DNA from: Eretmocerus hayati
Lineage: Eukaryota; Arthropoda; Insecta; Hymenoptera; Aphelinidae
Assembly (NCBI GenBank): GCA_029851415.1
Contig: CM056743.1
Span: 12,764,727 to 12,828,726 of the forward strand
DNA: 64,000 bases
Reading direction: 5' to 3'
Positions within the stretch are counted from its first letter, which is position 1, and every line of letters begins with the position of its first letter. Position numbers and translations under genes: made by a program. The notes beneath the pieces were generated by a model. The model had not been told where the DNA came from. It ran no database searches and saw only the letters and a program-made list of their open reading frames with translations. Positions 17,583 to 59,152 of the stretch are shown piece after piece.

Positions 17583-17726
17583 ATATCGATGGGCCAGAGT
17601 AAAAAGGAACTATCTGAAAATTTTTTGGTTAAACGGAACAATCTTGTATTATATATTCAAAAGAAGATAGTTCCGTTTAACCAGGAATTTTCAGGATAGT
17701 CCCTTTTTACTCTGGGCCATCGATAT
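17583..17726. mobile_element. 144-base MITE, near-perfect palindrome
   Basis: ATATCGATGGGCCAGAGTAA at the left end is mirrored by TTACTCTGGGCCATCGATAT at the right end. The pairing continues inward through AACTATC.TGAAAATT and GGTTAAACGGAAC with few mismatches, leaving a small AT-rich loop. There is no coding potential. It is a typical fold-back MITE with arms of about 57 bases. Confidence 0.75.
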
Positions 17727-18306: not shown

Positions 18307-19201
18307 TTGAGATGAACCTTTAGAGAGATTGTATCGAACACAACGTACTCTTTCAGAGAAAAACCCTATGGTGCTAAAAAGTTTGCATAAAATCGCAAAA
18401 AGCGACGATTTGATGAGAAATGAAAAGTGCGATTACTCAAAAACATGAATTTGTATCCTCTTGAAGATTTCTCTGAAAGTGCTTTGAGAGATGCCAAACA
18501 TGATGCAATTGGTCTGATAGGCGCTGAAAAATCGTGTATGGGGTGCTCGGAATTTTTTTCTGATAAAAAATTTGAACTGCCAAATAACTATTGTTGAAAT
18601 TTGGTAACAACTCTTATGGAAAGATCTATTCTTTTACCCGAGAGTGTCATGGTCTATCCTAAGATGATTAATTTCGGGAAATATTCCTCCCTTCAGTGAT
18701 TACAGTTCAATTTAGCGATAGGTCCCGAAATGAACCATATTGGGATAATTCCATGGGATTATGATGCTCTTGAGAGAGGAAATGAGATCCTGTCACGAGA
18801 GTTGTTGACAAATCTCAACAATAGTTTGGCATTTGAATTCTTTTATCCAGAAAAAAAGTTGTACCGTCACCCACGATTATTTAGCTCCCAACGGACCAAA
18901 TGCATCATATTTGGCATAGTCCATCAGAGTACCCTCAAAATGAGAAATTCAAGAGGATACGAATTTATGTTTTTGAGTAATCGCATTTTGCTTTCTCTAG
19001 AGAGAAAGCTTTGTTTTCGACACAGCAAATTTTTGATCAATTTTTCCATTCAACTCAATATTTTCTTCAACATAATTCATCTTATCACAAAAGTGCTTCA
19101 ACCATCTTATTCCTCTCGCCAAAATCTAACGATTGTAGATAACACTTTTCTCCTTATAATCCTCAAAAACCCCCCAGTGACTCATCTCTCCGGCCCTTTG
19201 T

Positions 19202-21247: not shown

Positions 21248-21256
21248 AGGTTGAGA
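21248..21256 (+). repeat. Left target-site duplication AGGTTGAGA
   Basis: These nine bases directly precede the left terminal repeat and are repeated in the same orientation at 30099-30107, directly after the right terminal repeat. Including a further T it could be read as ten bases. Confidence 0.8.
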
Positions 21257-21549
21257 ACCATGGTATAGTGGGCAGAAAAATTTTGTTTAATTCATACAAT
21301 GTTCATATCAATCGATGGGGCATGAATTCCTCAGTCTCGGGATATGACTGATTTTAATTTCTCAACCTTCAATTTTCCAAAAACAGTGAATGAAGGTACC
21401 GTTGCGGTATGTCTGGCGAGGCTCGAGGGAGGTCTCCCCAAGTCCGATCTCCGGCTCAAATTATTCCTGAGAGTCCAAAACTAATTCCTCAACCCCTACT
21501 TGAGGACCAAACAATTTGTTTATTCTAAAAACCAAAGATTTATTGACAA

Positions 21550-21948
21550 TTACCCCCACCCCTCGTTGAGCGGAAAACACGCGATGGCGTAGGTCAAGTG
21601 CGCAACAAGGCGCGAATAATTTGAATGTTTGAATGTGACAACTTTACGGGAGAGGGGCTTGTGACTTGTCTGAAACTCATAAACAGTGTGCGTTTTGAGG
21701 CACAACCAGCTCACCCAGGGTGTTAAGATCCGATGATGGTCACCAGGAAATGAGACCCGGCCTCGACTTAGTGAATCGGCGTCCGGGCCTTGACAATTTA
21801 TTTTGGTGCATTTCAGAGGTGCGTTGCAGACGACGTGGAATTTATGGTCGCCCATGTGTGCACCAGGATGCACTGGGATGCACCGCAAAAGAGAAGTTTT
21901 CTTTAATGTAGTGCTCCAGGTTTCGGGATGGCTCTGGGACGACGGCAA
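21550..21948 (-). other. 132-codon open frame in the left terminal repeat
   Basis: The frame begins MPSSQSHPETWS and ends with a stop inside the arm. The right arm carries the same frame at 29407-29805 with identical translation. I do not recognise the product. It has several Cys and His residues (for example HKFHVVCNAPLKCTKINC) but no defined zinc-finger pattern. Preservation may reflect arm homogenisation alone. Confidence 0.25.
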
Positions 21949-22427
21949 TATCTAGGAAGCGGTGGCAGAACAAAATTTGTGGAAATAACCTCTAATTTGT
22001 ACGCTTGCAGTGAGGCTCAATTTCACGTGATGTGCGTTGAATTGTCATGTTTGATGCATTCAGAATTCTCAGATGCGATTCATGACTAGTTCCTGGATAT
22101 ATTACTCCACCCTGAAGAATGGAAACACTGGCACTGGATAGAAACCAAACAGCGGAGAGGACAATTCATTCTCGTTACTTTCAGTTAGTCAGAAAGTTAG
22201 AGATCATTTTATTGAGTCCACAGAATACTCATGTAGTTATTACTCTCATGAGTGCACTGCTGATATAAAAGCTTGATTCCTCAATGAGTGAGCAACAGTG
22301 TTTCGTGGAATTGTAATTGGTCGTTTCTGACTACACGTGTCAGTTTCGTACTACCTCATTGATGAAATACTGTCGAAGGGTGAATGAACTCCTTCAAGAA
22401 ACTTGCTGATTCGAGTTACAGAATGTT

Positions 22428-22985
22428 ATGGAATCAGCACCACACACAGGATCAATCTTTGTTGTGGTTTTCTATCAAATTAACGAGTTCTGCAATCATG
22501 TCTCACAGACATCAATTAGTCAGTCTGAGCATTTATTTGCAGCATCAGTAATATTTTTCATGAATGTATGCATGGGGAATTATGGGATACAGTCCATGTC
22601 AATTTCCACCTATTCATCTGCTTTGATCAGTTTCTAGAAACATGTCACACATTGAAATACTCAAAACTACTTGAACATCTTCACACTTTCAATGGCAAAT
22701 TTCCATTTCGAATGAAAACAGAAGGATTCAAAGGTTTCCGTGGTACTGGAGAGAGGCACTGGGCAGCAAATTTGACAGTATGGCATAGGTATCATAAGGT
22801 TATTGTTTCAATCAATGGAAGCTTACTCTATTTATCGAATGATTAGAGCAATGGTGCTTAAATTTTCCACTGAGGGCTCCATAATACATACTCAGTTGGG
22901 CATCGCTCTTATTCAACACCTAAGTAGGAATCTTCCTTTATTGTCAATGGAAGAGAAGCAAAAACTGAATCAAATGGCCCTCTAA
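22428..22985 (+). pseudogene. Broken coding remnant in the left terminal repeat
   Basis: Three overlapping short frames (22428-22637, 22568-22846, 22803-22985) read on in different phases, as if one longer coding region had been broken by frameshifts. The middle piece has protein-like composition (HTLKYSKLLEHLHTFNGKFP ...). The right arm holds the same pieces inverted (28927-28718 and 28787-28509); the third piece there is cut by an insertion at 28132. One G-to-E replacement separates the copies of the middle piece. The family is not recognised. Confidence 0.3.
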
Positions 22986-24070
22986 TGCTGGCCACTCCCA
23001 CAATTATTCAGATAAAAATTGTTAGAGGTAGAACACTTTTAGGGCTCCACCTGAGATTAATATTTTGAGAATCCAGAAAGAAACTTGGAAAAGGATCTGC
23101 TAGCGGATCTTACAAACTTTTATTTTATACACGGGTCTGTCGCATTTTGGTATTTCATCCAGCAAGTCAAATCAATTCGACTGAAGTATTATATTCCGAC
23201 AGCTATGTGCTTCTATCTTCCTCAGTTATCAAAGCTCACATCCCTTGATATGACGACCACGCGTTTTGATTTTTCCTCTTCTGAATACAAATCGGATTTT
23301 TAAAATGAAATAGCTGTTGAAGAGTCTTTCACCAATTTTCAATTGGAAAATTTCATGTAAAATGTAACGTAAGTATACCCCCCCCCCTTCACCCGACTCT
23401 GATTCTTCGATCATAGCTTCGGCCTCCTTCGAAATTTCAGATGGTACCACAGCCGTAAATTCATTTCAAGACCTCCGAAATGAGCTATAGTACTCACTAC
23501 TTTGATAAACCAGATCCAAGTTACCCCAATTTTCCCGAGTGATTTTGCGAGAGTTCATCATAAGGGAGTGCAAACCTGCGAATTCCCCGCGACATCCTTT
23601 TAAATAGTGCAAGTCGGGGTATGCCGCTGGTTCAACTAACTATTTCTTCCATGGTTTGACGCGATAAACATGTATCAGATCGGTAAACTTGAACGCGAAA
23701 GGATGTAGCGAGGATTGAAACGAGACTTATTGGCTCTTAGTTTTTAGAGCTAAATCAACTCTTGCAATGCTGTGCATTTTTTCAAAATAAACGTCATCTT
23801 TTAAAAATAGCTCCTAAAGAATCTTTCTTTATTTGTTGAAACAGTTTTGAATTGAAAATATCAGGATGCCACTGATTTCATAAAAATCACGATAAATTAA
23901 ATTTATTAGAATATTGTTCATTTGTTCAAATAGCTATCCCCGCCAATTTCACTATGCGTTCAGATGTCAGCTGGGTTGACAATTTCAATGAATTTTGAAC
24001 GTGACACGATTAATAATTTTTAAAATTAACTAGCGCTTGACGTCATCAACCAGTCCTTATCAGGGTTTTT

Positions 24071-24262
24071 AACGAAATCCATTTTCAATCGCGTTGAATT
24101 TCGTTGAGTCTCATTCGATGACCCATTTCATGACGAAATCCCACTCAAAAAATCATAATCGTCACAATATGATAATTATGATTTTTAGAGTGGGATTTCG
24201 TTATGAAATGGGTCATCAAATAGGACTCAACGAAATTCAACAAAATTGAAATGGACTTCGTT
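24071..24262. mobile_element. 192-base fold-back MITE inside the large element
   Basis: The arms begin AACGAAATCCATTTTCAAT and end ATTGAAATGGACTTCGTT. They pair almost throughout, including TGAATTTCGTTGAGTC and GATGACCCATTTCAT, around an AT-rich centre near 24165. Confidence 0.75.
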
Positions 24263-24710
24263 AGAAATGCTGGTCCTTATTGCGATGTCACGTCCGATTT
24301 TTGGGCAAAGAAGAGTATATATGTCAAGAAAATCGTTCGTAACTATCGCTCAAACATCGATCCTATAGCTATCCATGTCTTTACGCATTTACTTATTATT
24401 AGTCGGTAGATCAAGACATAAGGGCCCTGGTATGAATATTGTGTTAAGATGTCAACGATTCATGTAAATATTTTTCACCTCGATCGCGGGGTACGGTCAC
24501 ATTTCCAAGCGCCTTCGTTTCTTTCCAGAAGAAATTTGTTTCGTATCAGGTAATTGGATTAGTAGTGCACGGTAGTGTATTGCATCCAAAAACTCGATAA
24601 GGCGACTTAATCAATGTTAAATCCAAATGGAGGAAGACTGGCTTAACTGAAAACCGAAACTGAATTGAAACTGAGTAGTACGTTGGTAATCAATTGAGGG
24701 GCTGCGTTAA

Positions 24711-24905
24711 AAAAAGGGCGTAATGGTGGGTACGCACTTTTTCCGCCCTGTCACTCTTCGATTCCTCTGAGGGATGTCCTAACCATCCATGAAACCCGTT
24801 TTGATAATAAGTATTCACGTACCTCGAGATCTTGAAAAGGGCGTAAACGCCATTATGCCTTTTCTGCGATTTGACAAAAGGGCGTAACCGCCTTTACGCC
24901 CCTTT
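24711..24905. mobile_element. Short element with AAAAGGGCGTAA ends
   Basis: The left end reads AAAAAAAGGGCGTAATGG and the right end CCGCCTTTACGCCCCTTTG. Two further direct AAAAGGGCGTAAnCG copies lie at about 24836 and 24882. The ends are inverted. The internal pairing is patchy, so this is a weak call. Confidence 0.4.
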
Positions 24906-25027
24906 GTTCATAGAATTATTGGTGTGTCGATGGCTAATCTAATTTCCTCAGAATGTCTTTTGCCAAAATTGATCTGGAGCAGTTGAACCGTAGAAAGGAA
25001 AGCAAGGATGAAATTCTTAGGGAAAGT

Positions 25028-26080
25028 GCCTGGAAACTGGAGGCTAACTCGACGATCCACATTTGAATCCGTACGTCTCTGGTTCTACTGTATCGAATTG
25101 ACTTAAACAAGTGGTCATTTTGAAGCTGGTTAACCTATCCATTCAAACTACTTTCAATAACCAAAATCCGTGAACATGCCTAGGAAGTTCACATCGGTGA
25201 GACGAAATTACAGAGAATTGAACTATAACTCGTTCCATGTGAATTTTCTGCGCTGGCCCCAAAATCAGTTTCTAATAGGTGGCCGATCCAGTTACCTCCA
25301 AGATCACCACTTGCTGGACTCGATTTGATACAGTAGAACCAGAGATGTACGCATCCAATTCCAAATGTTAAAGCGACTTTCGAGCTAGCCCTCAACTTAT
25401 AATCTATCGATTCTGTAGCAAAATCGAGGTCGGCACGCATTTTTTTGCAATCGATTCGTCTTGACTCGCTGATTACTAATATCTAATTTTCGGCCCGAAA
25501 ATCCGGGTCAGTTTTTTTCATTAACAAAATACTACAATGAAAGCAAATATGCAGCCACTCGATTCATTATGTTATTTAAAATGAAAAAGTAGTCTAGATA
25601 ATTTCCTCTAAATAACCCATTATTTCTTATTTTCATCAACAATTGCAGAAGAAATAATGGGTTTAGGGGAAAGTGTCTGGAACACTTTTTCAATTTAAAT
25701 AACATAATAAACTGAGTGGCACATTTACTTGTAATAATTTGATTCATAATTCAAAGTTATGCCGAATTGTTATGAACGAAGTCGCTTTGTGCATCGGCAA
25801 ATGTAGATTTACATACAAACGTAGATTTACATAATCCATCGCCGCATAAATCATGTAAACGATGTCAAATGCAACATTTTTTTTACGTGAAATTTTCCTC
25901 TCCGACCAGAGCTTCTCTACTTGTGCGCAAAAAACCATAAATTTTGCAGTATTTTGTTAATAAAAAAAAACTGACCATCAGGATTTTCGGGCCGAAAATT
26001 AGATATTTGAAATTAGCGAGTCAAGACGAATCGATTGCAAAAAACTGCGTGCCGACCTCGAATTTGCTACAGAACCTATA
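25028..26080. repeat. Nested inverted repeats inside the large element
   Basis: Three sets of inverted arms are visible. The region 25042-25140 pairs with about 25265-25390, sharing TCTCTGGTTCTACTGTATC. The region 25410-25521 pairs with about 25965-26075, sharing CGATTCGTCTTGACTCGC and TAATTTTCGGGCCGAAAATC-type sequence. An inner pair at about 25565-25625 / 25640-25715 shares ACCCATTATTTCTT. This suggests fold-back elements inserted into one another. No gene is seen. Confidence 0.55.
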
Positions 26081-26280
26081 TGGCTGGCTGATAGATTATA
26101 TTACGAATTCTATAACTAGGAATTTTATTTTTCGTCCTACAGCTGCAATTCCAGCCCCATGCACTGCTCCGCGTCAACTTCGGCAAGAGATATATGTTTT
26201 CCGCGAAAAGCAGACCAGCTACTGATTTAAAAAGTAATTTCAAAGTCGTAAGACATAGCGCATGTGCTATTTTTCACGTA

Positions 26281-27285
26281 CCGTCAACCGGGGTAACTTT
26301 GGAACACGGGGGGTAACTTTGGAACAACCCATGAAAGAGTGGTTATCACGCACAGTTGGCTAGGCAAATGATCCTGAGGCCTTTTGCATTGGCGCGAGGG
26401 CCTTCATCAGGTATTAATCCGTTTGTAAGCTGACTTCTTCAGAAGTGCGTTTTCAACCCAACAAACAGTCTCTCGGAAAAAGTGGTGTGGTTCCGACTTT
26501 AGTAGGTCGAATTCGAAGTAGCTGCCCTGGGTAGCTGAGCTAGATTTCACTTGTCTGTACACATATCTGGACGAATCCAGTGTTACATTGGATTATTTTC
26601 ACGAAGTTTCAGTTTTGTAGAGTAAAAACTGACAAGTATAATGTATTTTTTTTTTTCAGAAACCGGGGTAACTTTGGAACACTTGTTCATGTACTCTCAA
26701 TTATTTCCCAAGATTCATATCATCCTCGAATCATATATACTCGAGTAGCCGTTGACGAGAGCTTCAAAATGAAACAAAGAACGTCTCATTTCGACCCATG
26801 GAAGCCAAGTTATGGCAGTTTTTGTCAGAAACCGACTGTGAAGGTATTTTCCTCCTCGAGAGTTAGCCGTGGTGCAGATAGTGAGGTATGCTGAAGGCGT
26901 CTATGCTCAATTATAGAGGTTCAATTCAACCAAATGGACCTTTTACAACAGGTCAATGGAAAGCTAAGACACTCAGTTTTCGATTACTGATGGTGAAAAT
27001 CGATTGTGTGACCTAGTTTATGAATTAATTGACGAATAAATAATGATAACAATTTCTGTTCCAAAGTTACCCCAGTCCGTGTCTAACTTTGGAACACGAC
27101 TTTCAGCGCTCATAGCTCCAACCAGAGATGTCCAAATGGACCTTACAAGTCCCGCAATCGAAAGCTGAAACTGTAAGCTTTCGATTGACCACAGATACGA
27201 TGCACTTCTGATGTAAGACGTACAAGTTTCGCGAGGTTGAAGAAAAAAAACGCGAATTTTGTTCCAAAGTTACCCCGGTTGACGG
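26281..27285. mobile_element. 1,005-base TA-flanked transposon (Tc1/mariner/pogo-like ends)
   Basis: The ends are inverted: CCGTCAACCGGGGTAACTTT at the left, and a right end that closes with ACCCCGGTTGACGG. A TA dinucleotide flanks both ends (26279-26280 and 27286-27287), the target of the Tc1/mariner superfamily. The motif GGGTAACTTTGGAACA is repeated subterminally at about 26311 and 26667, and inverted near 27058. No long transposase frame exists, so the element is non-autonomous. It lies inside the 8.84 kb element. Confidence 0.7.
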
Positions 27286-28131
27286 TATCTTCGTAATTAG
27301 CATCTTCTGCGAAAAGATGCTGATCACTGATACGAAATTTGCGTTTAAAACAACTTTATACGTGTATTTGAGCATTTATCAATCAAAATGATACTAAATA
27401 AAGTCGTTCCCGATGGATATGATCCTAGTGCAATTGCAAAGTTCTATATGAAGGAATTTTGTAAAGGAATAACGTCTTCTTCAAAGTTCCTTACGATTTT
27501 TCTGAGAATAAAAAGCCCCAAGGGCTCGAGGCGTAAGAATAGAGGCTGAAATTTCACATACAGGTGGCTCATCATCACCCAGATCGGAAAAGAAGGATAG
27601 AGAAATCAAATCATGCAACCAAGTATTCATAAGCAGATTTTGGATTTTTGAGTATTCCAGCCCGGAGGTGTTTAGAAAAGACGCGAATGGTTTCCACCAA
27701 AAGTTGGTCGATAGGTTTTCGAGCCACTCCTCAAATGATTTTGGTGAAATCAAAATCGGTCAAATCAGCAGTTCAAAGTTACGAACAAACTAGGGTAGCT
27801 CGGACTCAATCTCCGATTTTTAGGTGCAATTAATAAGAAACTCTATCTTTGACAATGCAAGAAAATTGTAGGAAATTCCTTATCTCAGTACACGGAAATA
27901 AAAAATTCGTTTGGAAACTTTTGAAAATTTACTTGGATGTACTGCATCATCAATTCCAAAAATTAATCTCAGCTGGAGCCCTAAAAGTGTTCTACCTCTA
28001 ACAATTTTTATCTGAATAATTGTGGGAGTGGCCAGCATTAGAGGGCCATTTGATTCAGTTTTTGCTTCTCTTCCATTGACAATAAAGGAAGATTCCTACT
28101 TAGGTGTTGAATAAGAGCGATGCCCAACTGA

Positions 28132-28460
28132 CAAGGGGAGGACCTGACCTTTGGATCACCAATCCTTTCCAAAATTTTTTTACAGTTTTGTGTCACCTAG
28201 AATATGAAGAATCCAGAGTAACTCCGTCAAATGGGCCTTCTGTCCAGAGCTACAAGCAGAAATGTTAGCGTTGCCAGTATATCTATATATATCACTTTTT
28301 AACATGGGCCTATATGGGCAATGTTAATGTCATGGGCTGTAACTTTGAACAGGAGGCCCATTTGACGGAGTAACTCTGGATTCTTCATATTCTAGGTACT
28401 ACTAAACTGTAAAAAAAGTTTGGAAAGGATTGGTGATCCAAAGGTCAGGTCCTCCCCTTG
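28132..28460. mobile_element. 329-base MITE inserted in the right terminal repeat
   Basis: The ends CAAGGGGAGGACCTGACC and GGTCAGGTCCTCCCCTTG are perfect inverted repeats, and arms of about 140 bases pair inward. It interrupts the right arm exactly: the left-arm equivalent (about 22889) is empty and has one TGA, whereas the insertion is flanked by TGA on both sides (28129-28131 and 28461-28463). The 3-base duplication is a direct reading from the filled and empty sites. Confidence 0.85.
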
Positions 28461-29406
28461 TGAGTATGTATTATGGAGCCCTCAGTGGAAAATTTAAGCA
28501 CCATTGCTCTAATCATTCGATAAATAGAGTAAGCTTCCATTGATTGAAACAATAACCTTATGATACCTATGCCATACTGTCAAATTTGCTGCCCAGTGCC
28601 TCTCTTCAGTACCACGGAAACCTTTGAATCCTTCTGTTTTCATTCGAAATGGAAATTTGCCATTGAAAGTGTGAAGATGTTCAAGTAGTTTTGAGTATTT
28701 CAATGTGTGACATGTTTCTAGAAACTGATCAAAGCAGATGAATAGGTGGAAATTGACATGGACTGTATCCCATAATTCCCCATGCATACATTCATGAAAA
28801 ATATTACTGATGCTGCAAATAAATGCTCAGACTGACTAATTGATGTCTGTGAGACATGATTGCAGAACTCGTTAATTTGATAGAAAACCACAACAAAGAT
28901 TGATCCTGTGTGTGGTGCTGATTCCATAACATTCTGTAACTTGGATCAGCAAGTTTCTTGAAGGAGTTCATTCACCCTTCGACAGTATTTCATCAATGAG
29001 GTAGTACGAAACTGACACGTGTAGTCAGAAACGACCAATTACAATTCCACGAAACACTGTTGCTCACTCATTGAGGAATCAAGCTTTTATATCAGCAGTG
29101 CACTCATGAGAGTAATAACTACATGAGTATTCTGTGGACTCAATAAAATGATCTCTAACTTTCTGACTAACTGAAAGTAACGAGAATGAATTGTCCTCTC
29201 CGCTGTTTGGTTTCTATCCAGTGCCAGTGTTTCCATTCTTCAGGGTGGAGTAATATATCCAGGAACTAGTCATGAATCGCATCTGAGAATTCTGAATGCA
29301 TCAAACATGACAATTCAACGCACATCACGTGAAATTGAGCCTCACTGCAAGCGTACAAATTAGAGGTTATTTCCACAAATTTTGTTCTGCCACCGCTTCC
29401 TAGATA

Positions 29407-29805
29407 TTGCCGTCGTCCCAGAGCCATCCCGAAACCTGGAGCACTACATTAAAGAAAACTTCTCTTTTGCGGTGCATCCCAGTGCATCCTGGTGCACACA
29501 TGGGCGACCATAAATTCCACGTCGTCTGCAACGCACCTCTGAAATGCACCAAAATAAATTGTCAAGGCCCGGACGCCGATTCACTAAGTCGAGGCCGGGT
29601 CTCATTTCCTGGTGACCATCATCGGATCTTAACACCCTGGGTGAGCTGGTTGTGCCTCAAAACGCACACTGTTTATGAGTTTCAGACAAGTCACAAGCCC
29701 CTCTCCCGTAAAGTTGTCACATTCAAACATTCAAATTATTCGCGCCTTGTTGCGCACTTGACCTACGCCATCGCGTGTTTTCCGCTCAACGAGGGGTGGG
29801 GGTAA
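29407..29805 (+). other. 132-codon open frame in the right terminal repeat
   Basis: This is the mirror copy of the frame at 21948-21550, with an identical translation. The product is not recognised. The frame is intact in both arms, whereas the neighbouring remnant is broken in both. Confidence 0.25.
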
Positions 29806-30098
29806 TTGTCAATAAATCTTTGGTTTTTAGAATAAACAAATTGTTTGGTCCTCAAGTAGGGGTTGAGGAATTAGTTTTGGACTCTCAGGAATAATTTGAG
29901 CCGGAGATCGGACTTGGGGAGACCTCCCTCGAGCCTCGCCAGACATACCGCAACGGTACCTTCATTCACTGTTTTTGGAAAATTGAAGGTTGAGAAATTA
30001 AAATCAGTCATATCCCGAGACTGAGGAATTCATGCCCTATCGATTGATATGAACATTGTATGAATTAAACAAAATTTTTCTGCCCACTATACCATGGT

Positions 30099-30107
30099 AG
30101 GTTGAGA
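30099..30107 (+). repeat. Right target-site duplication AGGTTGAGA
   Basis: This is a direct copy of 21248-21256, immediately outside the right terminal repeat. Confidence 0.8.
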
Positions 30108-33107: not shown

Positions 33108-33624
33108 ATTCGAGATGCGTGGCGACAGCCACGCCGCCCTATCGGGCTCTGCCGCAAGCTGTCTCGGTGCCAACAGCTGATCGGTTCGAAATGGTTTACC
33201 GCAGCGCGGGCTAGCGCGGACCCGGCAGTACGTACACGAGGCTAAGTTATTACATAAAAATTATGAATAATAGCAATATTGAATGTCTTACCTAGTAAAT
33301 TTCAGTGATTTGGCGACTTATGGAGGGTCGGGTATGCGGAATGTGTACATTATATGATCCGGATCCGCCACCTCATATTCAGTAGTGCATCTCCGCATAC
33401 CCGACCCTCCATATGTCGCCAAATCATTGAAATTCACCAGGTAAGACATTCAATATTGTTATTATTCATAATTTTGATGTAAAAACTCAGCCTCGTAGAA
33501 ACACTGCCGGGTCTGCATCAGCCCGCGCTGCGGTAAACCATTTTGAACCGATCAGCTGTTGGCACCGAGACAGCTTGCGGCTGAATCCGATAGGGCGGCG
33601 TGGCTGTCGCCACGCACCTCGAAT
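33108..33624. mobile_element. 517-base fold-back element with ~240-base arms
   Basis: ATTCGAG at 33108 is mirrored by CTCGAAT ending at 33624. The arms pair through GTGGCGACAGCCACGCCGCC, CCAACAGCTGATCGGTTC and GGAGGGTCGGGTATGCGGA, leaving a loop of about 40 bases around 33365. Arm similarity is high but includes substitutions and small indels. It is GC-rich compared with its surroundings. It lies about 450 bases upstream of the GLG1 start codon. A target duplication is not clear. Confidence 0.75.
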
Positions 33625-34070
33625 TGCTCTAAACTTACTTGTGACTTGTGACGTCGGAGAAGAGTTTCTTGTACGCCATTCACTTACACATCAGGGAGTT
33701 ATCGGCTCATCACTGATCACCAAGACTCAAACACAGGAAAATGATTCTTCGCGATGATTGCGAGTGACAGAAGGTAGTATGATAATATCTGCAAAAGGTC
33801 AGAACTCACACTTGAGTCTTTCTTGTGATTCAGAGGAACGACACACTCGAAAAACATTGCGACCGGCTGTCACAACGTCCGCCACGAACACTATTTCGAT
33901 GAGCTGAATTTGATCATCGTACTTCAACGTCAGGATTATTCCCGGCGAGCAGTCATCTTCAAACATCAACAGTGATGCCCGAACGGGATCCCAATACGAT
34001 CACCAGCTGATCTCGTGGATCTGCAACTGAGATTGATTGGAAGGCCGTATCCGGCTCCGGAACGGCAGCA
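33625..34070 (+). promoter_or_regulatory. Presumed promoter and 5' leader of GLG1
   Basis: This is non-repetitive DNA between the fold-back element and the GLG1 start codon. It is expected to hold the transcription start and leader. I see no TATA box or initiator that I would defend, so the call rests on position. Confidence 0.4.
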
Positions 34071-37000
34071 ATGATGGCACAAACTCCGCGTCTTCTGCTG
34101 CTGTTGTTGATGTTGATATGCTCAAGTTCAGAAAGATATTCCGTTTTTTGTTCGGATATTGAACAAAAAACAACTCTCAACAATTCTGAACTGGACCGCG
34201 TCAAACGTGAGAACAGAGCCTATCCCAAAACTGGAGCAAGCGATAATGATGTAGATGAGTCTCACCAGCTCAGTCTGTTTGCCCAACTGCAGCCTGACAG
34301 CTGCCGACACAAGCTGCAATCCATGTGCAATGTGCAATTTGACAAAAACACAGATGATCTCTTTTACCTCAAGTGTTTCCAAACGTTCAAGGTGAGTTTT
34401 TTTTCTTTTCTATGTGGATATTTATGTAGTTTACTACTGTACTCACAATAATTGAGTAACATGTGAATGCTGAAGCTCTTGCAATCATTCCATTCGTACA
34501 TAACAATCTTATTTTCCTGCTAAAATCTGATTGTAATGTTCCTGTGTTGCAGCCTAATGAAATCTCTTTGATCGAGGACCAATGTCAACATTCAATCTTC
34601 AAGTACATTGAGGAGATGACAAACATTGATAATATACGCAAGATTGTCAGAAAAGAGTGCGGCCATACAGTAGATGCTTTGGCTTGTCCTTATGATTCCT
34701 CTATGACTTTTTTGTCATGCCTGCTGAAAAAGAGCGAGAGCATAGCAGATTTAAAGTGTTCTGATTACATCCAATGGCTTAACTGGATTGTCAACGACTT
34801 CAAGATCATTGACACATCTTTCATACCCGAATGCCGTAATGATGTCAATAAATTCCAGTGTGGCAGAATACAGCCATACAGAGATATACTCCAGGGACAA
34901 ACTCTAGCTTGCCTGCAACAGCAAATCCATAAATTGGAAGCAAGCTGCAGGAAACAGATACTCAAAGTTACAGAGGTTCAAGCTGATAACATCAAGTTAG
35001 ATAGACAGTTAGATCTTGCCTGTTCACTAGATCACATGAAATTTTGTCCAAATTTGCGTCCTGGCAGTGGTCAAGTTTATAAATGTTTGATGGACCATAA
35101 GTTGGATCGAGCCATGACAAGAGCATGCCAAGACCAGTTGATGAGGAGAGAAAAATTGATTGCATCGGATTACAAAGCAAGTCGTGGTTTGGCAAGAGCC
35201 TGTAAAGAAGATATCAAGATCTATCGATGTAGGAAGAATGTTTCAGATGATAGGGATATCAGACTTGCCCAAATCTTACTTTGTTTGGAATCAGCTGTCA
35301 ATAATGGTAGCAAAGTAGATGGCCAGTGCAAGGTGGAAATGTTTGATCATCGCAAAATATTGATGGAAGACTACAGACTCTCACCCGAGATTGTCAGTAG
35401 CTGTGCCACAGATATTCAAACATTCTGCAATAATTTAGAAGTTGGTGGTTCTACAATACATTGTTTGATGGAGTACACTCGGGTGAAGAAAAGGAAAAAG
35501 AATAGAGTGTCTGTAGTATGTCAAAGAGCTGTGAGTATTGATTGCATTATTTTTTTAATTATTCCAAGTTTATTAGCAATCATTAAGTTAAAGCGAATAT
35601 TTTTCCACAGTTAGAGGATCTAATTAAGGAAACAGATGCTGGTGAAGATTGGAGAGTTGATCCAGTCTTGAGGGAAGCATGTCAATCAGTGGTAGATGTT
35701 GCATGCCGAGGTGTAAGTACTAAAATAATGTCGAAGTTTATAATTGTATCCTTCTATATCAAATGGTCAATTTCATTGCTCAGGTTCAAGGAGGCAATGC
35801 TAGAGTCATATCTTGCTTAATGGATAATTTGGAGAATGATCGTATGACGGAATCGTGTGAAACTGCGCTTATTCAGATTCAGTATTTTATAGCCAGGGAC
35901 TACAAGCTTGATCCTCAATTGTACAGAGCTTGCAGGATAGATGCAGTGCAATTTTGCCATGCTCAGGATGCATGGGCTAGCAATGGCATGCAAATGGATG
36001 TTGAGAGAGGCCCACTAGTGCTTCCTTGTCTGTACAGAATTGCAAATCATCCTCAAGCCAATATGACGGTAAATTCATACATAACTGAGATTATAATTCA
36101 TCGTACATGTGTGTTCATCAAGAAAATTTCCAATTTTAGCTCAAGAGAGACTGCTTGGATCAAATCAGGAGGGTGATGAGACAAAGAGCAATAACAGTAG
36201 ATCTTCAACCTGAAATAGAAGAAGTGTGTCTTGATGACTTGGCTTCGTTTTGTTCCTCTAGGTTTGGTAAAGGAGAGGAAATTTCATGCTTACAAGACAA
36301 ACTAGATAGGTAATGCATTTGTAGCTACTACTTCTTCAACTTACCGATTCAATAATTTTAATATGTGTATTCATAGTCTGAGCATGAATTGTAAGGCAGC
36401 TGTAGGAAATCTAACTGAACAACAGGCTGAAAGAGTCGAACTCAATCCTGTAATTTCAATCGCTTGCCGTCATATCATGGAAAAACATTGTGAGGTATGT
36501 CAATTATGTCCCATAAATTTACCGAGAAAATCATTTGGCTAATTTTTGTTATTGTTGCAATTTAGGAAGTGATAAAGTATGGCAAAGATGAAGGAGATAT
36601 GATGGAATGCCTGATTGAGCACAAAAATGATTTGGATACTCGTTCTGATTATAAATGCAGAGCAGCTATTGAACATTTCCAATTATTGTCCTTGAAAGAT
36701 TATCATTTTACTTTTAAATTCAAAGAAGCTTGTCGCCCAATGGTTTCTAGGTGGTGTCGTAAGTGAGTACTCCTTTCCTTTATGATTAGATTATTTAGAC
36801 TCGTTAGCTAATTTTTCAATTGATGTTGAAAGGTCCAAAACGAAAGTTGAAGTTATCGGGTGCTTGAGTGATATTGTGCAGAAAGATATATTGCAAGACT
36901 CTCAGCACAAAATCACTAGAGAGTGTAGACAGCAACTTAGAGCTCAATTGTATCAACAACGAGAAAACATAAAATTTGATCCAAAATTGAGCAAATTATG

Positions 37001-40000
37001 TGCATATGAGGTGAAACAGTACTGTTCCAACATTGAACCTGGAAACTCTCAGGTTTGTAGAAGTCCAGTTTTTTGATGATTACTCTTGTTAACTTTTTGT
37101 TTGATAATGGTGTTCTCACTTCTTTTGGTTGTCTTTGTGTTGTAGATCTTAGAATGTTTAGCATTGAATAAACCTAAACTGGGTGAAGAATGCCACGCGC
37201 AAGTATTCCGAGTTAGAAAACAAGAATTTCAGGATAGTTCGAGTGACTACGCTTTACTGAATGCTTGCAATTCCATGCTCAAACAGTTCTGCAATGAGGA
37301 GCCCCAGTCTAACGCGTTGAATTGTTTGAAAAAACATAAGAATGTATCCATGTTTGATGAGAAATGTAAGACTTTTGTTGTAAATAGAATGGCTGAACAG
37401 AATACAGACTACAGGTTTAATCCAGCTCTACAGACAGATTGTTCTGTGGACATTAACAGACATTGTAAAAATGTGGGTAAACAATCATGAAAATCAAGTC
37501 TGATTTAGATCAACGGTTGAAAACGCTATAATTTCTATTTTAGGTAATTCAGGATGAACCACGAAGCAAGGAGTTAGAAGGCAAAGTCATCAAATGTCTC
37601 AAAATCAAGTTTAAAGAATCCAAACTCCTTGACAGATGCAAGAATCAATTGGAGACTATTCTGAGAGAAGCAGCTTTGAATTACCATCTAGACCCTCTTA
37701 TCATGTCAATGTGTTCAGAAGAGGTAAGTCATACTCCTTTCTAAATATTACTGAATCACATTTTTCATCAACTTTCCAAAAATGAACTCAGAATTGAAAT
37801 TCTAATCATTTCATTTGCCACTATCTTTAGATTTATAAATTATGTGATGCTGATGAAAGTTCCCCGGGCAAGGTTGAAGAGTGCTTGAAAACCCAATTTA
37901 CCGCGGATAACAAAGAAATGAAGGAAGCTTGCCGTATGCAAGTAGCTGAGATGATTGAGGAAACTAAAGCAGATATAAATATTGATCCTCTTCTGCAAGA
38001 AGCATGCTCTGTTGACATCGCTAAATACTGTAATCTTGTACAGCAAGGATCGGGAAGACGTGAGTCTCAAATCCGGCCGAGATTATTCCAATATTGGTGT
38101 ACTTGAATGTAAACTACTTCAAGTTGATGGCAAATAATTCTTTTCAGATATCAAATGCTTGCAAAACGTGTTACAAACAGAAAAAATGTCTCTCCAGCCA
38201 GATTGCTATAAAATGTTCACTGGAAGAATCGAAATGTTCAAGAATGCAGATAAGAAGGTAAGTTATTCATTTGATGACTCTTTTTTAATGACACAGGGTG
38301 TCTACAGGGAAAAACTCCGTGAAAAAGTCGGGAATTCATCGGGAATCTCTCATGGTCGGGGAAAACTTGGGAAAACATCGGGAATTTTGGATAAATGAAA
38401 AAAAGCCGGGAATTTTAGATTCTCACCCTCGGATCAGGTAGATTGTAAAGAACTGATAATCAGAACAGGATTTTGGGCAATTTTGGGTCTGGAATGATTG
38501 TTCTAAAGATTTTCTTGTGTATATTTTTTGGTAAGAACCGAGCCCGTAGCCAGATTGACCCCCACCCACCTCAAGATTTTTTAATTGCAAAAAGTGATTT
38601 TCTCATTTTCCTTTGGTGGCGCAAGGTTGAAGTGTCCCGAGTGTTGTCTTGAAACTATAGTTTCCTACGTATTTTGACCTGCTGAATACGAGGACAGTAG
38701 TTTCTGAGAGCTAGAGTGCCATTCAAAACGAGTGCCAAACTGATTCTTCCACTTGCTATCAAGAAAATTCTACTGTTTCTGCAAACAGTCTCGACATATC
38801 CAGGTAATTGATCAGCAACGTTCTTTCCCAGCTAGCAAAAACGCATTTTTTGGTTTTTGAAAGAATCAGTTCTTTGCGATTCCAAAAAAATCTGGCTTCT
38901 GGGAGCAAAACAGCCTGTGCACTCGGTTTCTACGTCAAAAAATATGCGAGGAGATTATGTTTTGGTGAATGTTCATATGACTATACAAAGAGTATTCCAG
39001 AACATGTCTAAACAAGCGCATTCAAAAGGCGTGGATAACATTGAGAGTCATCTCTTCTAATCGTAATCCAAGCATTTTGCATACTCTTCCAACAAGTTCG
39101 GAAAGTATTCCTTGTAGTCTAGTCGACATACCATTCCGACCCCAAAATTTTATTAACCACTGTTATTGTTTTCGAACTGTCTTCATAAAACGCATTTTTA
39201 AAGTATCAATCCCTCAGTTTTCACCCATAGGTGTAAATTTTGGCAGGTATTAGTAAGATGCATCTAGAATAAATGATTTTGATAGTCTTCTCTAAAATGA
39301 AGAACGTTCAAGTTCATTTAGAAGGGTTGTTCCCTCTTCCATATTAGTCATTTCAGAACATTTCAGCCAGAGGCGTCACCAGGGGGGTCTGGGAAAAATC
39401 CCAAAAAATTGTTTTCCATTAATACTATGTTTAAAAAGTACAAAAAATTTTTTTTGGGATTTTCCGAAGCCCTCCACGGGCCCTAGGGCCCACAGGAGGT
39501 CTATTTTAGGCCCTTTTTTGGCCTATTTGTGGAAAGTCATAGCTAGCACGACTAGACTCAATCTTTTTGATTGATTCCGGACTATTTTTTTTTTTTTTTT
39601 TTTTCCAAAAGTGCTAGTCTTAATAAAGAAAATGCGCCCAAGTACGTAAAAAAACATTGAGTCCAGTCGGAGCTATGATTTTCCAGAAATAGGCCAAAAA
39701 AGGGCCTAAAATGGACCTTCTGTGGGCCCTAGGGCCCGTGGAGGGCTTCGGAAAAATCCCCAAAAAAATTTTGTATACTTTTCAAACATAGTATTAATGG
39801 AAAAAAATTTTTTAGGATTTTTCCCAGACTCCCCTGGTGACGCCTCTGGCTGAAATGCTCCGAAATGACTCATATACATAACGAATTAGTCGGTAATTTC
39901 CGAAAATATCTGGGAAAAAGCCGGGAATTCATCGGGAATTTTTCGAACTCCCTTTTGTAGACATCCTGGTCTGACACTAATAAATATTGAGGATCTGAAT

Positions 40001-44261: not shown

Positions 44262-45014
44262 TGTGTGCACGGTGCTAGGGAGAGGACGACAGGTTGAAAA
44301 AAATTGTCACCAAAAACTGAACACGTGGTCATTGAGTACTATGCCCAAGGATCAAAATCTCGTTTCAACCGGAATGGAGCAATAATTCCCTTTTTTGAAA
44401 TGCGAGCTTGATTCGTATCTCTACGTGTTATTCAAATGGAGCTGTTTCAACACTTTTACTTGTCAAGACCAACAGCTCGCAAAGCTCATAACTCAAACGT
44501 ATCCCAAATTCCAACTATTTTCAGCGTACTTTAGCTCATTCTAAAATCTTCAAAATGATTTGAAATGAGTTTGATTTCAACAAACTATATAGAGTCGAGG
44601 AACCTCATTCTGAATCGATACCCGAGATTTCCTGTTCTAACGATTTGAGACTTTTCGAGCTCCTAACTCCTGAATAGCTCAAGTCTACTGTGTTGAATTA
44701 AAGCTCACATTAGATCATTTTGAAGGTGTTTGAATAAGCTTCAAAATAAATTGAAGTACGTAGGGAAATATTGAGTATCATTGAAGTTATGGGCTTTGGG
44801 AGCCGTTATAGTCTCGATAAGTATGTTGCTCAAAAAAGCTCCATTTGATTAGCACGTGAAAATACGAATCAAGCTCGCATTTCAAAAAAAAGGAATTGCT
44901 CCATTTCGGTCGAAATGGGATTCTGATCCTTGGGCATTGTACTAAATCACTACGTGTTCAGTTTTTGGTGACAATTTTGTTCAACCTATCGTCCTTTCCC
45001 GAGCACCGTGTGTG
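44262..45014. mobile_element. 753-base fold-back element, copy 1 of a two-copy family
   Basis: The left arm begins TGTGTGCACGGTGCT and the right arm ends AGCACCGTGTGTG. Pairing continues through GTCACCAAAAACTGAACACG, then through TGCCCAAGGATCA and GGAGCAAT, for about 170 bases. The same terminal motif and arm order are found in the larger element at 56043-57166. Confidence 0.7.
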
Positions 45015-47687: not shown

Positions 47688-50600
47688 ATGGACGCATCGT
47701 CCATCATCACCCAAGTGTCTCGCGATGACGAGCTCGCACCAGGATCACAATTTAGCGGTAACGAGAAAGGTAAATACCTATACTATATTAGTATACTGCT
47801 TTCCATCACTATACCATCCCACGTGAGAGACACCCTGCATACCTAATTCCTTAGTCTATTTTGCTCATCAGGCACCCAGCCTCGTCCGATCACACCTGTT
47901 GGTCCATATTTTTGACCTGTCTGCCTGTATCCTATGTAGTATTTGTTACTAAATTCATCAACATTCCGCGAAGCTCAATCATCTTTTGATATGTTCGATT
48001 CGCTGAATTGTTGCAATTATGTGTGATGTGCTATTTAGAAGAAGCAAATTGATACAAATCTTGTCGCATTACTCTGTGGGTGACTCTTAATTTTTTCTGT
48101 CTCATCAGAAGATCTTCAATTGATATTACTCTGGATCATTTTTGAGCTGAGGAATGTATCTCTCATCTTATTTGATACCCCATAGCGCCCAGCCTCACTA
48201 CAACATATTACCGTGTGCACTTGGAATTCGCATCAGTAGCATATAAGCGGACTCAAGATGCGCCAACCATACCCAGCTTGGTCAAGCTTTTTACGTCCAG
48301 CCTTGGGATGCTGCCGCCGCCTCGTTTCTCCTCTTTTACCTCGAGGTCCATCACACACGTCTATATAAACGGAAACGCATACATGCTCGCTCGTACTTTA
48401 TTCTCGAGCTGCTAATACGATTTACCTCCGTGATCTCCTACAAATACTCTCATAATCCACTCCTATCCTCTATTTCTCTCTCACACTATTATACTTCTAT
48501 GTTTCTTTGATACTTTGCACAATATAGATCTTCTAATTTCCCTCTCACATGCACACATCTCTCGTCCGCCTCGTCTGCTATATTAACACGAGTTTTTTCC
48601 ACTTCATCTGTGGTCTTCACGTTTCAATTAATATCATGTTCAATGACATTCACGCGAAACAAACCCTTATTGCTTTCATTACCTTGAAAATAAACGTTTC
48701 AAGCTATCCTCATGTTTTCTGTATCATCCGCTTCCAGAAATGATTTAATCGAGTGTTCATTCCCTTACTTTTTTGGAAAGAGGATGTCAAATCCTTGGGT
48801 TCCTTTTCAACCTGTACTTTTTACAATGCACAATATGCAAATCAGTAATACCCAATAAAGTCACATCCAGAACCACTAGATACTCGCCACAGTCGTCTCT
48901 TCCCAATAATCTTGTATCTCTCTCACATCGCTGATTTTTACAGATTGATCATGAAACAGTTTCCCTTACAATGGAAGAAAATTGCTGAAAATTCATCTCA
49001 TTTCAGTGACTAAAGTCAATGGTTATAATGGACAATCAAATTATTATGAGGACTAGAGCTTTCTTGGCCCAAATTTTCATTTCAGCAATTCAAAGTCTCA
49101 TGTGTGAGACAGATCTTTATTTTGACTCGTCAAACAAATGTGATCTAGATTCTTACGAGCTCTGCGGATATGTAAATACTCTGATGATTATTCCTTAGCC
49201 CTCTTTCGCATACAAACTTTGCTTTCAATTTATGAAATTTTCAGTCCAGTATTTGCAATCTACTTTGCTGGTAATATTCTAATCAATATTGTCACTTGAA
49301 ATCAATAGTTTCTGATTTGATACAAGATGTCCATTCACTATACTTGCTGTCTTCACTAGCTTTGAAATTTCGCCAAATTCTAAGGCAATGTTTATCATGT
49401 ATTTACTGTATAATGATGTTAACAAATGTTGTAAAATTTTCAGCACAATTACCAGGAGACAACGAGTCCAATGCCAATGGCTCAACTCAAAGCGAGAAGA
49501 AGTCAAGGAGCCAAGGCTTCTTGCGTTCACTCTTTTGCTGCTTGGGGCGAAACAGAAACAATACTTCGAAGAGTTCAAAAGCGAACTCTTATCAAACTGA
49601 ACGGAGAGAGGCGTTCTTCCGCGGCAGCCCATTACCACGCTCAGGCTCACCACGATTTTTACTGCCTCCCGTACGTCACCAGGATGTACACAAAAAGTGT
49701 ATGGTGATTGACTTGGATGAAACTTTGGTTCATAGCTCATTCAAACCGATCAATAATGCTGACTTTGTAGTGCCTGTAGAGATTGATGGCACAGTGCATC
49801 AGGTTTATGTCCTCAAGAGGCCTTATGTTGATGAATTTTTACAAAGAATGGGTGAACTATACGAGTGCGTCCTGTTTACAGCAAGCTTAGCGAAAGTAAG
49901 TCCAAAATTAATCGTACCCAATCTTACTTTAATTCGAGTTCAAGTTATTGAATAGTATGCAATCAGATATCCATTTTCATTTCTAAAAATGCGTATTATA
50001 ACTCAGAGTGGAGGAAAAAAAGATTAAGCCCCTCATTCATTAAACTCTTAGGAGTCGAAGTAAAATTTTGTAGCGTCATGCAATGAAGCATACTGTGCCC
50101 CCAAATTCTCTCCACAATCTTGAATAGAGCATATCATTTTCTTGTCGTATTAGTAATGTCATCTCCATGGTAATGTCAAAGTACAAGTTATGAAGATTAA
50201 TGTTATTACTCTGTGCTGTAGCTTAGCCTCAGGGCCTATTTTAGAATTTATTACTAGCTCTTGCTTCCCAATAAACCAAAACCACCAAAAGTTCTTTATT
50301 TGAAGAGAATTGAAAAAAACTCGGCTATTTTCATATACGTATGTGAATTTGTGACTTCCTATTCTTTCGTTGATAGTACATATGGTATAGAAAAAAGAAT
50401 TCCATTTACTTCGGTACCACAATATCACCGGATAACACTTACTTTTGGATCCACTCAAGTGTCTATTCTCATTCATAACTTTCGACTTCTATTCATGTTC
50501 GTCAATAATTAATCATATTCATTTATTCCTCAGTATGCTGATCCAGTTGCGGACCTCCTTGATCGATGGGGTGTATTCAGAGCAAGATTGTTCCGAGAAT

Positions 50601-56042: not shown

Positions 56043-57166
56043 GCACGGTGCTCGTGAAGCGGGCGAGTACCCGTCAAAAATTGCACAAATATCGGAGCAC
56101 GTGTAGTCATTTTCAGTTACTCCATACGAGTAGAGTCCCGTATGGAATCAGATTCGGAGCTGCTCGGTTCTTGAAATGCGTTTTTTTTAGCCGATGTGCG
56201 TTCCTTTCAAATTCGGCATAGTTTCTGCACTTTTCTGAATTTTTCTACGCAGTTCGGCTCATTTGAAAGTTGATGAAAGAATGTACAAAATATGATCAAG
56301 CAGGTCTAGTTCTATCCACTTCAAACCGAATGCGAGTGAAAACAGAGTTACCATTAAAAATTACAAGCAAATAAGTATTTTCACCGACAAGCATTTGGAA
56401 ACCGTCCAGCTGATGAATTTCTCAGTTCTCAGAGTTCTTCAACTCAGCTCGGACCATTTGAAAGATCACTAAAGAATCTGTAGAATCAAAATACAGAGCG
56501 CTTCATCTCGTCCATGGAAAACCGAAGGAACGCCTTCTGAACGCGTATCAGCAAAAACACCAGTTGGCTTGTAATTTTTAATTGTATCACTGCTATCGGA
56601 AGCATTCGGTTTTCTATTGGCGAGATGGGTCATGGGACGTTCTGTTTTTTTTATTTTACAGATTCTTGAGTAATCTTCCAAATGTGCCGAGCTGAGTTGA
56701 GAAACTCTGAGAACCGAGGAATTTATAAGCCGGACGGTTTCCAGACGCTTATATCGGTGAAAATACTGATTTGCTTGTAATTTTCAATGGTAACGCGCTG
56801 TTTTCACTCGCATTCTGTTCGAGGTTGAGAGAATCAGACCTGCTTGATTTCATTTTTTACATTCCGAGCTACATTCTGCCATCAACTTCCAAATGAGCCG
56901 AACTGCGTAGAAAAATGTAGAATAAGCTATATGCCGAATTTGAAAGGTCACATGTGCAAATCGGATAAAAAAAGGAGGCGCAGGTCATTAATCTCACAGC
57001 ACCATTTTTCAGCGCATTTCAAGAACAGAGCGCAGCTGCGGGACTAATTCCAACATGATTCTACTGATAATGCAGGAGTAGTAGGAAATGCGAGAGGAAA
57101 TGACTACATGCGCCGATTTTGGTGACATTTTCGGACGAAAATTCCCCCGCTTCCCAAGCACCGTAC
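56043..57166. mobile_element. 1.12 kb fold-back element, copy 2 of the GCACGGTGCT family
   Basis: The outer ends GCACGGTGCT (56043-56052) and AGCACCGTAC (57157-57166) are inverted, with paired AAGCGGG and GTAGTCATTT further in. An inner, longer fold-back runs 56183-56977. There TTTCAAATTCGGCATA pairs with TATGCCGAATTTGAAA, and ATCAAGCAGGTCT, TGCGAGTGAAAACAG and TTCTCAG(A)GTT pair likewise, around a centre near 56580. It shares its terminal motif and the ACGTG(T/G)(A/T)GTCATT segment with 44262-45014. No coding capacity is seen. Confidence 0.65.
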
Positions 57167-57825: not shown

Positions 57826-59152
57826 ATGCCGCGGACAAGAAAATCACCGAAGAAAACGGCAATCGCCGAAAAGTCTGGAGCTGCAAATAATAGCAGCTGG
57901 GTCTTCATAATGAAAGGTTAAAATCTGCTCTGATCTCTGTCTGATTTAAATATAACTCATCAATATTGATATCAGTATCAATTTTGAAGTGCAATTCTCA
58001 CAAATTGCTTCTTCATTCTACACATCAGCTATTCCATTATCGGATGAAACTCTAGGTTTAATCAATTTAAATTTCTAGAGGGGAGTCTACACAGTAAAGA
58101 TGATGCGCATCCTGTTTTGGTAAAACTTAGACACCCTGCAACTAATCGAGCATCCATGTATGCCTTCAGTCCAGGAGATACAGATGTTCAAGAAGTTATT
58201 GCTTTCAAAGATGACAAAAGATCTTGGTTCGTGGATGATACTGTGAGGTCGAATGGAAAGATGTATTTCTCAACTCCAGTTGATCCATTATTTTTGATTT
58301 TACCATATTTACAAAAAGTATGCCCTTCTCAATGCAAGTATCTCTTATATCCACTCCTGAATCTTGGAATAATGAACATTTTTACTTCAAGTCAAAACAG
58401 ACAATGCCTCTTGATCAATGCTTGCATGATGAGGATTATCCTGAGACTTACAGACTTAGTACCTGTCAGAATGCAAAACTCTGTCTCATTGCTGATCAAA
58501 AAGGAAGTGACTCATTGAAAGCATTCAAGTATAATGAAGAAAAGACATTGAAGTGGTTGCAAAAAAAAGTAGAGAGAGTATCGGAAGTTGTAAAACAGAA
58601 AGGAGTTCATGTTTCTCAAGGTGCAATCAGTGCCAATTTTGTTAAAAGTATGAAAAATATGACTGGTACACAAGAAGGTAGAAAAATTTAGATTTATATC
58701 CACCACATATGATGAAATATATCTATCTCCGATATCTTCACATCTTTATACTCTTGTAGAATTTGCAGTATATGCCTATGGTATCATCTCACAATATCTT
58801 CCAAAAGAACTGTCTCAAAAGTTGCGAGTTCATATGAATTTGCCTGATGAATCAGAAACAAAAAAAAGAAAACCAAGCAGTCCCAATAAGGCTACTGATG
58901 AAAAAAAATCAAAAACAGAAATAAATCAAGAACCAACCCAAGATGAATATTTTGACACAATTTCAGCAGGAAAGGTTTGTAGTCTATATGGTAATTCTTC
59001 TCTTTCTCCTAGATCAATCCACAATTTTTTTCAACATTCTTCACTGTATTTTTCAGCCTGTTAAAGCTCCCACGTTAACTAAGAAAGATTTGGCAATGAA
59101 GAAAGCTGCTGCAGGGTCGAAGAGTATTACAAGTTTCTTCATGAAAAAATAG
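57826..59152 (+). CDS. RNASEH2B: Ribonuclease H2 subunit B
   Basis: This is a non-catalytic subunit of the nuclear RNase H2 complex (with the A and C subunits), which removes ribonucleotides and RNA-DNA hybrids from DNA. Exons are 57826-57916, 58079-58317, 58392-58677, 58760-58974 and 59057-59152, giving 308 aa against about 312 in human. Diagnostic stretches are FVDDTVRSNGKMYFSTPVDP (triple-barrel region), LPYLQK, EKTLKWLQKKV and YAYGIISQYLPKEL. The lysine-rich C-terminus ends KSITSFFMKK, a PIP-box-like PCNA-binding motif at about residues 299-305, comparable to MKSIDTFF in human. The third intron is only 74 bases; an AG nine bases further on (58401) would also keep phase and drop Ser-Lys-Gln. 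It is convergent with BYSL. Confidence 0.93.

Follow-up and report, generated by a model that had tools for sequence, protein, structure and literature searches.

What keeps the two long arms of an inverted-repeat transposon almost identical, recent arrival or exchange between the arms, and what moves such an element if it has no recognizable transposase of its own? These questions are raised by an 8842-bp element at 21257-30098 of a 64,000-nucleotide stretch of DNA (hereafter the window; C3:12764727-12828726) from the biocontrol wasp Eretmocerus hayati. Long, near-identical arms are commonly taken as the sign of a young element. The 15 distinct copies compared here separate youth from homogenization, and both are present: the element is recently mobile, and its arms are homogenized, in part, by the transfer of changes between them. 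Judging from its sequence features, the element most likely belongs to a non-autonomous family of cut-and-paste DNA transposons that resemble Mutator-like elements (MULEs) and depend on a transposase supplied in trans from elsewhere in the genome.

A large element with long, near-identical arms

Self-alignment of the window pairs a left arm of 1805 bp (21257-23061, forward strand) with a right arm on the reverse strand that lies in two parts, an outer part of 1638 bp (28461-30098) and an inner part (27962-28131), separated by a 329-bp palindromic insert (28132-28460) with TGA on both sides. Across the 1805 aligned positions there are five substitutions, at 61, 1155, 1157, 1493, and 1794. Four fall within positions 1-1638; past the insert the match continues to 1805 with one more, and similarity then ends abruptly. 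A preliminary description of the window had reported a transposon with arms of this length and a handful of differences, as we find, without mention of the insert; it had also judged the arms more alike than those of neighboring elements, and the remaining inverted pairs that reach 100 bp in the window are indeed only 70-90% alike. Because 5 of 17 other copies (L010, L016, L018, L020, and L023) lack exactly the 329-bp piece and one TGA, leaving its target intact, we conclude that this palindrome is a nested insertion.

In a sequence search of the window, the element is bracketed by two exact copies of AGGTTGAGA (21248-21256 and 30099-30107, both in forward orientation), confirming the 9-base target duplication described earlier. 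The same nine bases recur at 16525, 29987, and 56822, and reversed at 21360. The tip, ACCATGGTATAGTGGGCAG, matches the window only at 21257 (+) and 30098 (-) when up to three mismatches are allowed, where shuffled sequence is expected to give 0.01 matches. The 8-bp terminal motif ACCATGGT is palindromic, being its own reverse complement, and for this reason a duplication of 10 or 11 bases could be argued for the window copy alone; at nine bases, the duplication is perfect in 17 of the 18 copies aligned below.

The interior of about 4.9 kb (23062-27961) is present in all 17 other full copies aligned. It carries two nested repeats that moved along with it: a 212-bp palindrome (24061-24272) with the 8-bp direct repeat GTCCTTAT and CAG ends, which we take to be hAT-like on these features, and a second element (26281-27285), set between TA dinucleotides, whose inverted ends start with CCGTCAACCGGGG and match perfectly over 26 bp.

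A recently mobile family

The preliminary description had proposed a search for further copies with 9-base duplications, and the assembly (692,130,109 bp, 17 contigs) contains them, at different targets. With the outer 153 bases as query, the 40 places scored among 107 candidates are 97-100% alike. The 19-base tip, with up to three mismatches, occurs at 89 forward and 77 reverse places (reversed control, 14 and 16). Counts of tip pairing and distance rest on 100 of these 166 places: 84 form 42 head-to-head pairs and 16 are unpaired. Thirty-two pairs are spaced at 8.2-11.1 kb, eight at 3 kb or less, one at 22.3 kb, and one at 28.3 kb. Of 20 stretches retrieved, each about 9-10 kb long, 17 have both ends and three (L021, L022, and L026) only one; the aligned set thus comprises the window copy (W) and 17 other full copies, with lengths of 8.5-9.4 kb. 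The remaining pairs of the 8.2-11.1 kb class were seen by their tips, apart from inner parts of four; in the inner stretches retrieved, two larger pairs (L046 and L047) and two smaller ones (L048 and L049) show this same interior, altered by insertions or deletions. The preliminary description named no family with these ends, and the tip was likewise not found in the literature we searched; an 18-base version was absent from the viral and GTDB contigs searched.

The 17 perfect target duplications (two bases differ in L011) count as 16 different sites, without a clear consensus, since L024 (C1:61665598) and L025 (C1:60806915) share one duplication. These two copies lie 0.86 Mb apart without a substitution between them, and the alternatives are a duplicated locus or a duplicated piece of assembly; they probably represent one insertion in a duplicated locus.

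Recent movement is evident from the copies themselves. W and L015, at different targets, show no difference across 8842 bp; with an identical copy elsewhere, the element has moved recently. L013 and L014, on different contigs, are also free of substitutions. Both carry G at one of the terminal bases, which suggests that an element already bearing this change has probably transposed. Measured from W, 12 copies carry 10-20 substitutions, L013 and L014 37, L009 58, and L010 90, and the interior tree of the copies is close to a star shape.

A core repeat and its probable inward extension

Seven shorter relatives that we read (L039-L045, 123-2908 bp) match W in its outer part only. The six of 228 to 2908 bp match stretches of up to about 430 bp, with main pieces 82-93% alike, and the 123-bp relative extends scarcely beyond two tips. 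L039 has 978-bp arms of its own, of which the outer 410-420 bp or so alone resemble W. From L039 and the other short relatives, we derive a shared terminal repeat, the core, of about 430 bp, corresponding to some 427 bp at 21257-21683 (+) of the left arm; the arms of L039 further imply that at least two subfamilies extended this core with different DNA. A relative of 28,293 bp (C1:84951734-84980026, ends L050 and L051) has ends of about 400 bp that are about 85% identical to the core, and it is flanked by a perfect 9-bp duplication, TCTCGTTCA. The core is thus shared, wholly or partly, with the shorter relatives and with both ends of the 28.3-kb relative, and the rest of the arm (21684-23061, +) is unmatched in the seven shorter ones. 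The 1.8-kb arms therefore look like a core repeat lengthened inward. Taken together, the family offers a natural series, from 123 bp to 28 kb and with repeats from the ~430-bp core to 1.8 kb, in which to study how terminal repeats lengthen and remain alike.

Base composition gives a hint about the inner arm. At 22487-23061, the observed/expected ratio of CpG is 0.20 and that of TpG/CpA 1.39, and in the interior the CpG ratio is 1.13; the inner arm resembles in this respect a genic stretch at 58-61 kb that is also poor in CpG (0.33). It might consist of old DNA that was once methylated, or of captured DNA such as a methylated piece of a gene, with the caveat that 13 of 129 control windows match the within-arm change in CpG, which is therefore not exceptional.

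Search for a mobilizing transposase

The interior appears to be non-coding. Thirty-eight frames of at least 45 aa overlap it, and a Pfam scan of 37 of them returned no match above cut-off, the best being DUF7441 (E 0.11, below cut-off); the indels that distinguish the interiors of different copies are mostly not multiples of three. The preliminary description had likewise found no transposase there. Nor did 12 arm frames match Pfam; for a Pack-MULE, which would carry a captured fragment of a host gene, the CpG-poor inner arm is only suggestive. No protein relatives were found for a 105-aa arm frame, and neither this frame nor one of 133 aa had relatives in viral contigs. No RNA family reached the gathering score in the window.

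Elsewhere in the genome, MULE transposase genes are abundant: 150 of 253 candidate matches were scored. Open frames of 394 aa account for 17 scored matches, 16 of which have identical scores, and open frames of 337 aa for another 14; these two groups are probably recently active MULE families. The 394-aa group was considered as the source of the element and rejected. Its fetched copies (L031-L036) end in GTTGGGGTACGTTTTTTCTAATCC and have repeats of about 126 bp; with a tip different from that of the element, this group is not the element's family. Nor were the element's ends seen in the stretches fetched for the 394-399 aa MULE family (L029, L031-L036), a 710-aa match (L030), a copy of the 337-aa group (L037), or a 572-aa gene (L038).

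Class assignment

Three features of the element agree with those of MULEs. Its 9-bp duplication falls in the class range of 8-11 bp without a fixed sequence, with 16 different sequences recorded; its terminal repeats exceed 100 bp (1805 bp, with a core of about 430 bp); and its derivatives share ends but not interiors (all seven short relatives read, 123-2908 bp). Together with the abundance of MULE genes, these features lead us to infer a transposase of the MULE class. In addition, a survey of arthropod MULEs names E. hayati among species with mostly complete copies among detected MULEs (PMC13359780).

Several observations weigh against this assignment. The partner element predicted in the preliminary description, with the same ends and a transposase, did not emerge from the 150 of 253 MULE candidates and 100 of 166 tips covered; PF10551, the MULE transposase domain, is missing from the 37 interior frames scanned, and its 150 scored matches are all more than 120 kb from the 100 listed tips, the nearest being 121 kb away. 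MULE membership is thus probable, not proved. The terminal bases are ACC, not all G/C, whereas in most arthropod MULEs the three outermost bases are reportedly conserved G/C (PMC13359780). Moreover, the reversed control leads one to expect about 30 of the tip matches, and the flanks read in eight relatives of other sizes vary: four have a perfect 9-bp duplication (L040, L042, L045, and the 28.3-kb relative), two have one mismatch (L041 and L044), and two have none that is clear (L039 and L043).

The same element might instead be mobilized by a transposase of another class, such as Rehavkus or an undescribed type, with the 28.3-kb relative being or containing the autonomous form. Rehavkus, whose hallmark is a transposase with a PHD finger, would fit the 9-bp duplication of the element and is also given 9-bp duplications in the literature (PMC6446971); the distance between the scored MULE matches and the listed tips, and the existence of a 28,293-bp relative with recognizable ends and a perfect duplication, point the same way. 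However, the element itself showed no transposase of any class, the large relative may contain nothing beyond nested insertions (the 150 scored MULE matches all fall outside it), and the genome holds many MULE copies. We consider a non-MULE mobilizer unlikely.

Transfer of changes between arms

For an analysis of arm variation, copies without differences were merged, giving 15 distinct copies and 1793 arm positions, 52 of them variable. The minority state occupies both arms of every carrier at 20 sites, one arm only at 27, and a mixture at five. Forty changes are private to one copy, and 15 of these are present in both arms (eight in L010, three in L009, two in L011, and one each in L013/L014 and L017) and 25 in one. 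Because a change arises in one arm, its presence in both indicates arm-to-arm transfer; 15 of 40 overstates the number of such events, since sites in one conversion tract are not independent, and this tempers the case. Mean divergence between the arms inside a copy is 0.187% (0.056-0.393), and between copies it is 0.403% for same-side arms and 0.435% for opposite-side arms. A larger change follows the same pattern: a 161-bp unit (arm positions 637-797; 21893-22053, +) is tandemly duplicated, with one junction, in the left arm only of L027, in the single L021 arm available, and in L023 on both sides.

The sites strictly shared by both arms all lie within positions 270-1539, where they make up 20 of 36 variable sites, and none is among the 16 variable sites nearer the edges (Fisher p 1e-4 by hand count, with sites that are not independent); edge site 61 is mixed, with A/A in L028. 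Such central placement would be expected of recombination that depends on flanking homology to left and right, but it is only suggestive.

A sequence of events can be proposed for the element as a MULE-like passenger. Its arms would have started from the ~430-bp core alone, with inverted copying of inner DNA lengthening them later; gene conversion between the arms inside each copy, during repair or replication, would keep them matched, and a transposase from elsewhere in the genome would mobilize the element in trans. A bolder account, which we find doubtful, is that a coding-less unit of 8.5 kb is amplified intact by an undescribed or non-MULE transposase, each round of transposition or repair copying one arm onto the other. 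Such a unit exceeds in size the complete MULEs that the survey lists for Hymenoptera (PMC13359780), and if the account were true, arm matching would be an active part of the life cycle and not a sign of youth.

The preliminary description had left a choice between recent insertion and homogenized arms, and both proved true. That recent insertion alone, without conversion, made the arms alike is very improbable: the identity of W and L015 and the 25 private changes still confined to one arm are what it would predict, but it is contradicted by the 15 that occupy both arms of a copy and by the 161-bp duplication, whose single junction recurs in one arm or in two; identical changes arising independently would hardly account for this. 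The idea could survive only if several copies were wrongly assembled. That the whole structure is a misassembly, or an inverted duplication unrelated to transposition, is scarcely credible: long palindromes are difficult to assemble, and L024 and L025 do have sequence and duplication in common, but independent copies carry perfect 9-bp duplications at 16 different sites, the insert and five substitutions distinguish the arms of W, and the assembly was built from PacBio HiFi reads (PMC10482854).

Relation to known systems

We rate the element as a new E. hayati family within a known kind, one in which arm-to-arm conversion has left an unusually clear record; it is of interest as a large, recently mobile element without a known enzyme. 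The complete hymenopteran MULEs of the survey have repeats of 126-514 bp, a range that covers the element's core but is exceeded by its 1805-bp arms, and they measure 2172-4113 bp and encode transposases of 334-475 aa, whereas the element measures 8842 bp and none was found (PMC13359780). Insect MULEs of the Phantom/Muta group, such as Muta1 of Aedes aegypti, are similar in their 8-9 bp target duplications, long terminal repeats, palindromic terminal motif (10 bp and imperfect in Muta1, against the 8 bp of ACCATGGT), and many derivatives that have ends alone in common and vary in their interiors (PMC5225508). Muta1 repeats are 145 bp long, however, and, unlike these MULEs, the element has no transposase found with its ends and its window copy lacks subterminal tandem repeats (PMC5225508).

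The likeness to Mutator-like and Foldback elements drawn in the preliminary description held for the end and duplication features of MULEs, but not for Foldback tandem repeats. No tandem arrays were detected in 21257-23068, which spans the left arm, and Foldback was rejected by structure because the arms lack short tandem repeats. A Foldback-like parallel is Tetris of Drosophila virilis, which is apparently non-autonomous, with no mobilizing transposase found, and has 8-10 bp duplications and terminal repeats of up to 1735 bp, a maximum close to the arm length of the wasp element; its arms contain ~220-bp tandem arrays, which the element lacks save for the 161-bp duplication in the three copies noted above (PMC4079207). 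Tm1 of root-knot nematodes, a Mutator/Foldback mix with 9-bp duplications, has members resembling miniature inverted-repeat transposable elements (MITEs) beside transposase-encoding ones, but unlike those of the wasp element its arms are composites of short tandem repeats, on average 93.15% alike inside an element (PMC3169594). Merlin, defined by terminal GG and 8-9 bp duplications (PMC8101967), was rejected since the ends begin with ACC. In Galileo of Drosophila, a P-superfamily element, arms are extended by recruiting inner sequence and are longest in non-autonomous copies, but its duplications are 7 bp, against 9 bp here (PMC3573991).

Conversion that acts on the two terminal repeats of a single element has precedents. 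In bacterial insertion sequences, recombination between an element's two terminal inverted repeats makes them identical, in a case that came with inversion of the middle (PMC3004938); the wasp case concerns arms of 1.8 kb. For Tetris, repeat homogenization via unequal crossing over or gene conversion has been suggested (PMC4079207). Among the papers listed in the literature search, no further title or visible abstract opening claims terminal-repeat conversion for MULE-like elements.

Other features of the window

P-superfamily elements make duplications of 8 bp; Galileo and this superfamily were both rejected as a home for the element, its 9-bp duplication standing against their 7-8 bp. Pieces of host genes lie to its right. 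The element sits about 4 kb upstream of a piece with Cys-rich FGFR repeats (34011-36176), Golgi apparatus protein 1 by the names of its matches. Domain matches identify a NIF-type phosphatase (49275-49955), Ydr279_N (58048-58515; presumably of the RNase H2 subunit B type), bystin (60330-61262), and MCM (62307-63273); a bystin exon is 100% identical to an E. hayati protein.

Two palindromic elements with similar ends are located at 44268-45010 (CACGGTGCT..GGGA, with TGTG on both sides) and 56045-57164 (ACGGTGCT..GGAAGCGGG). Full palindromes of about 140-580 bp that are 70-87% self-complementary occur at 2690-2932, 17583-17726, 18415-18997, 33108-33624, and 39341-39875; they suggest that palindromic MITE-like elements are plentiful in this genome.

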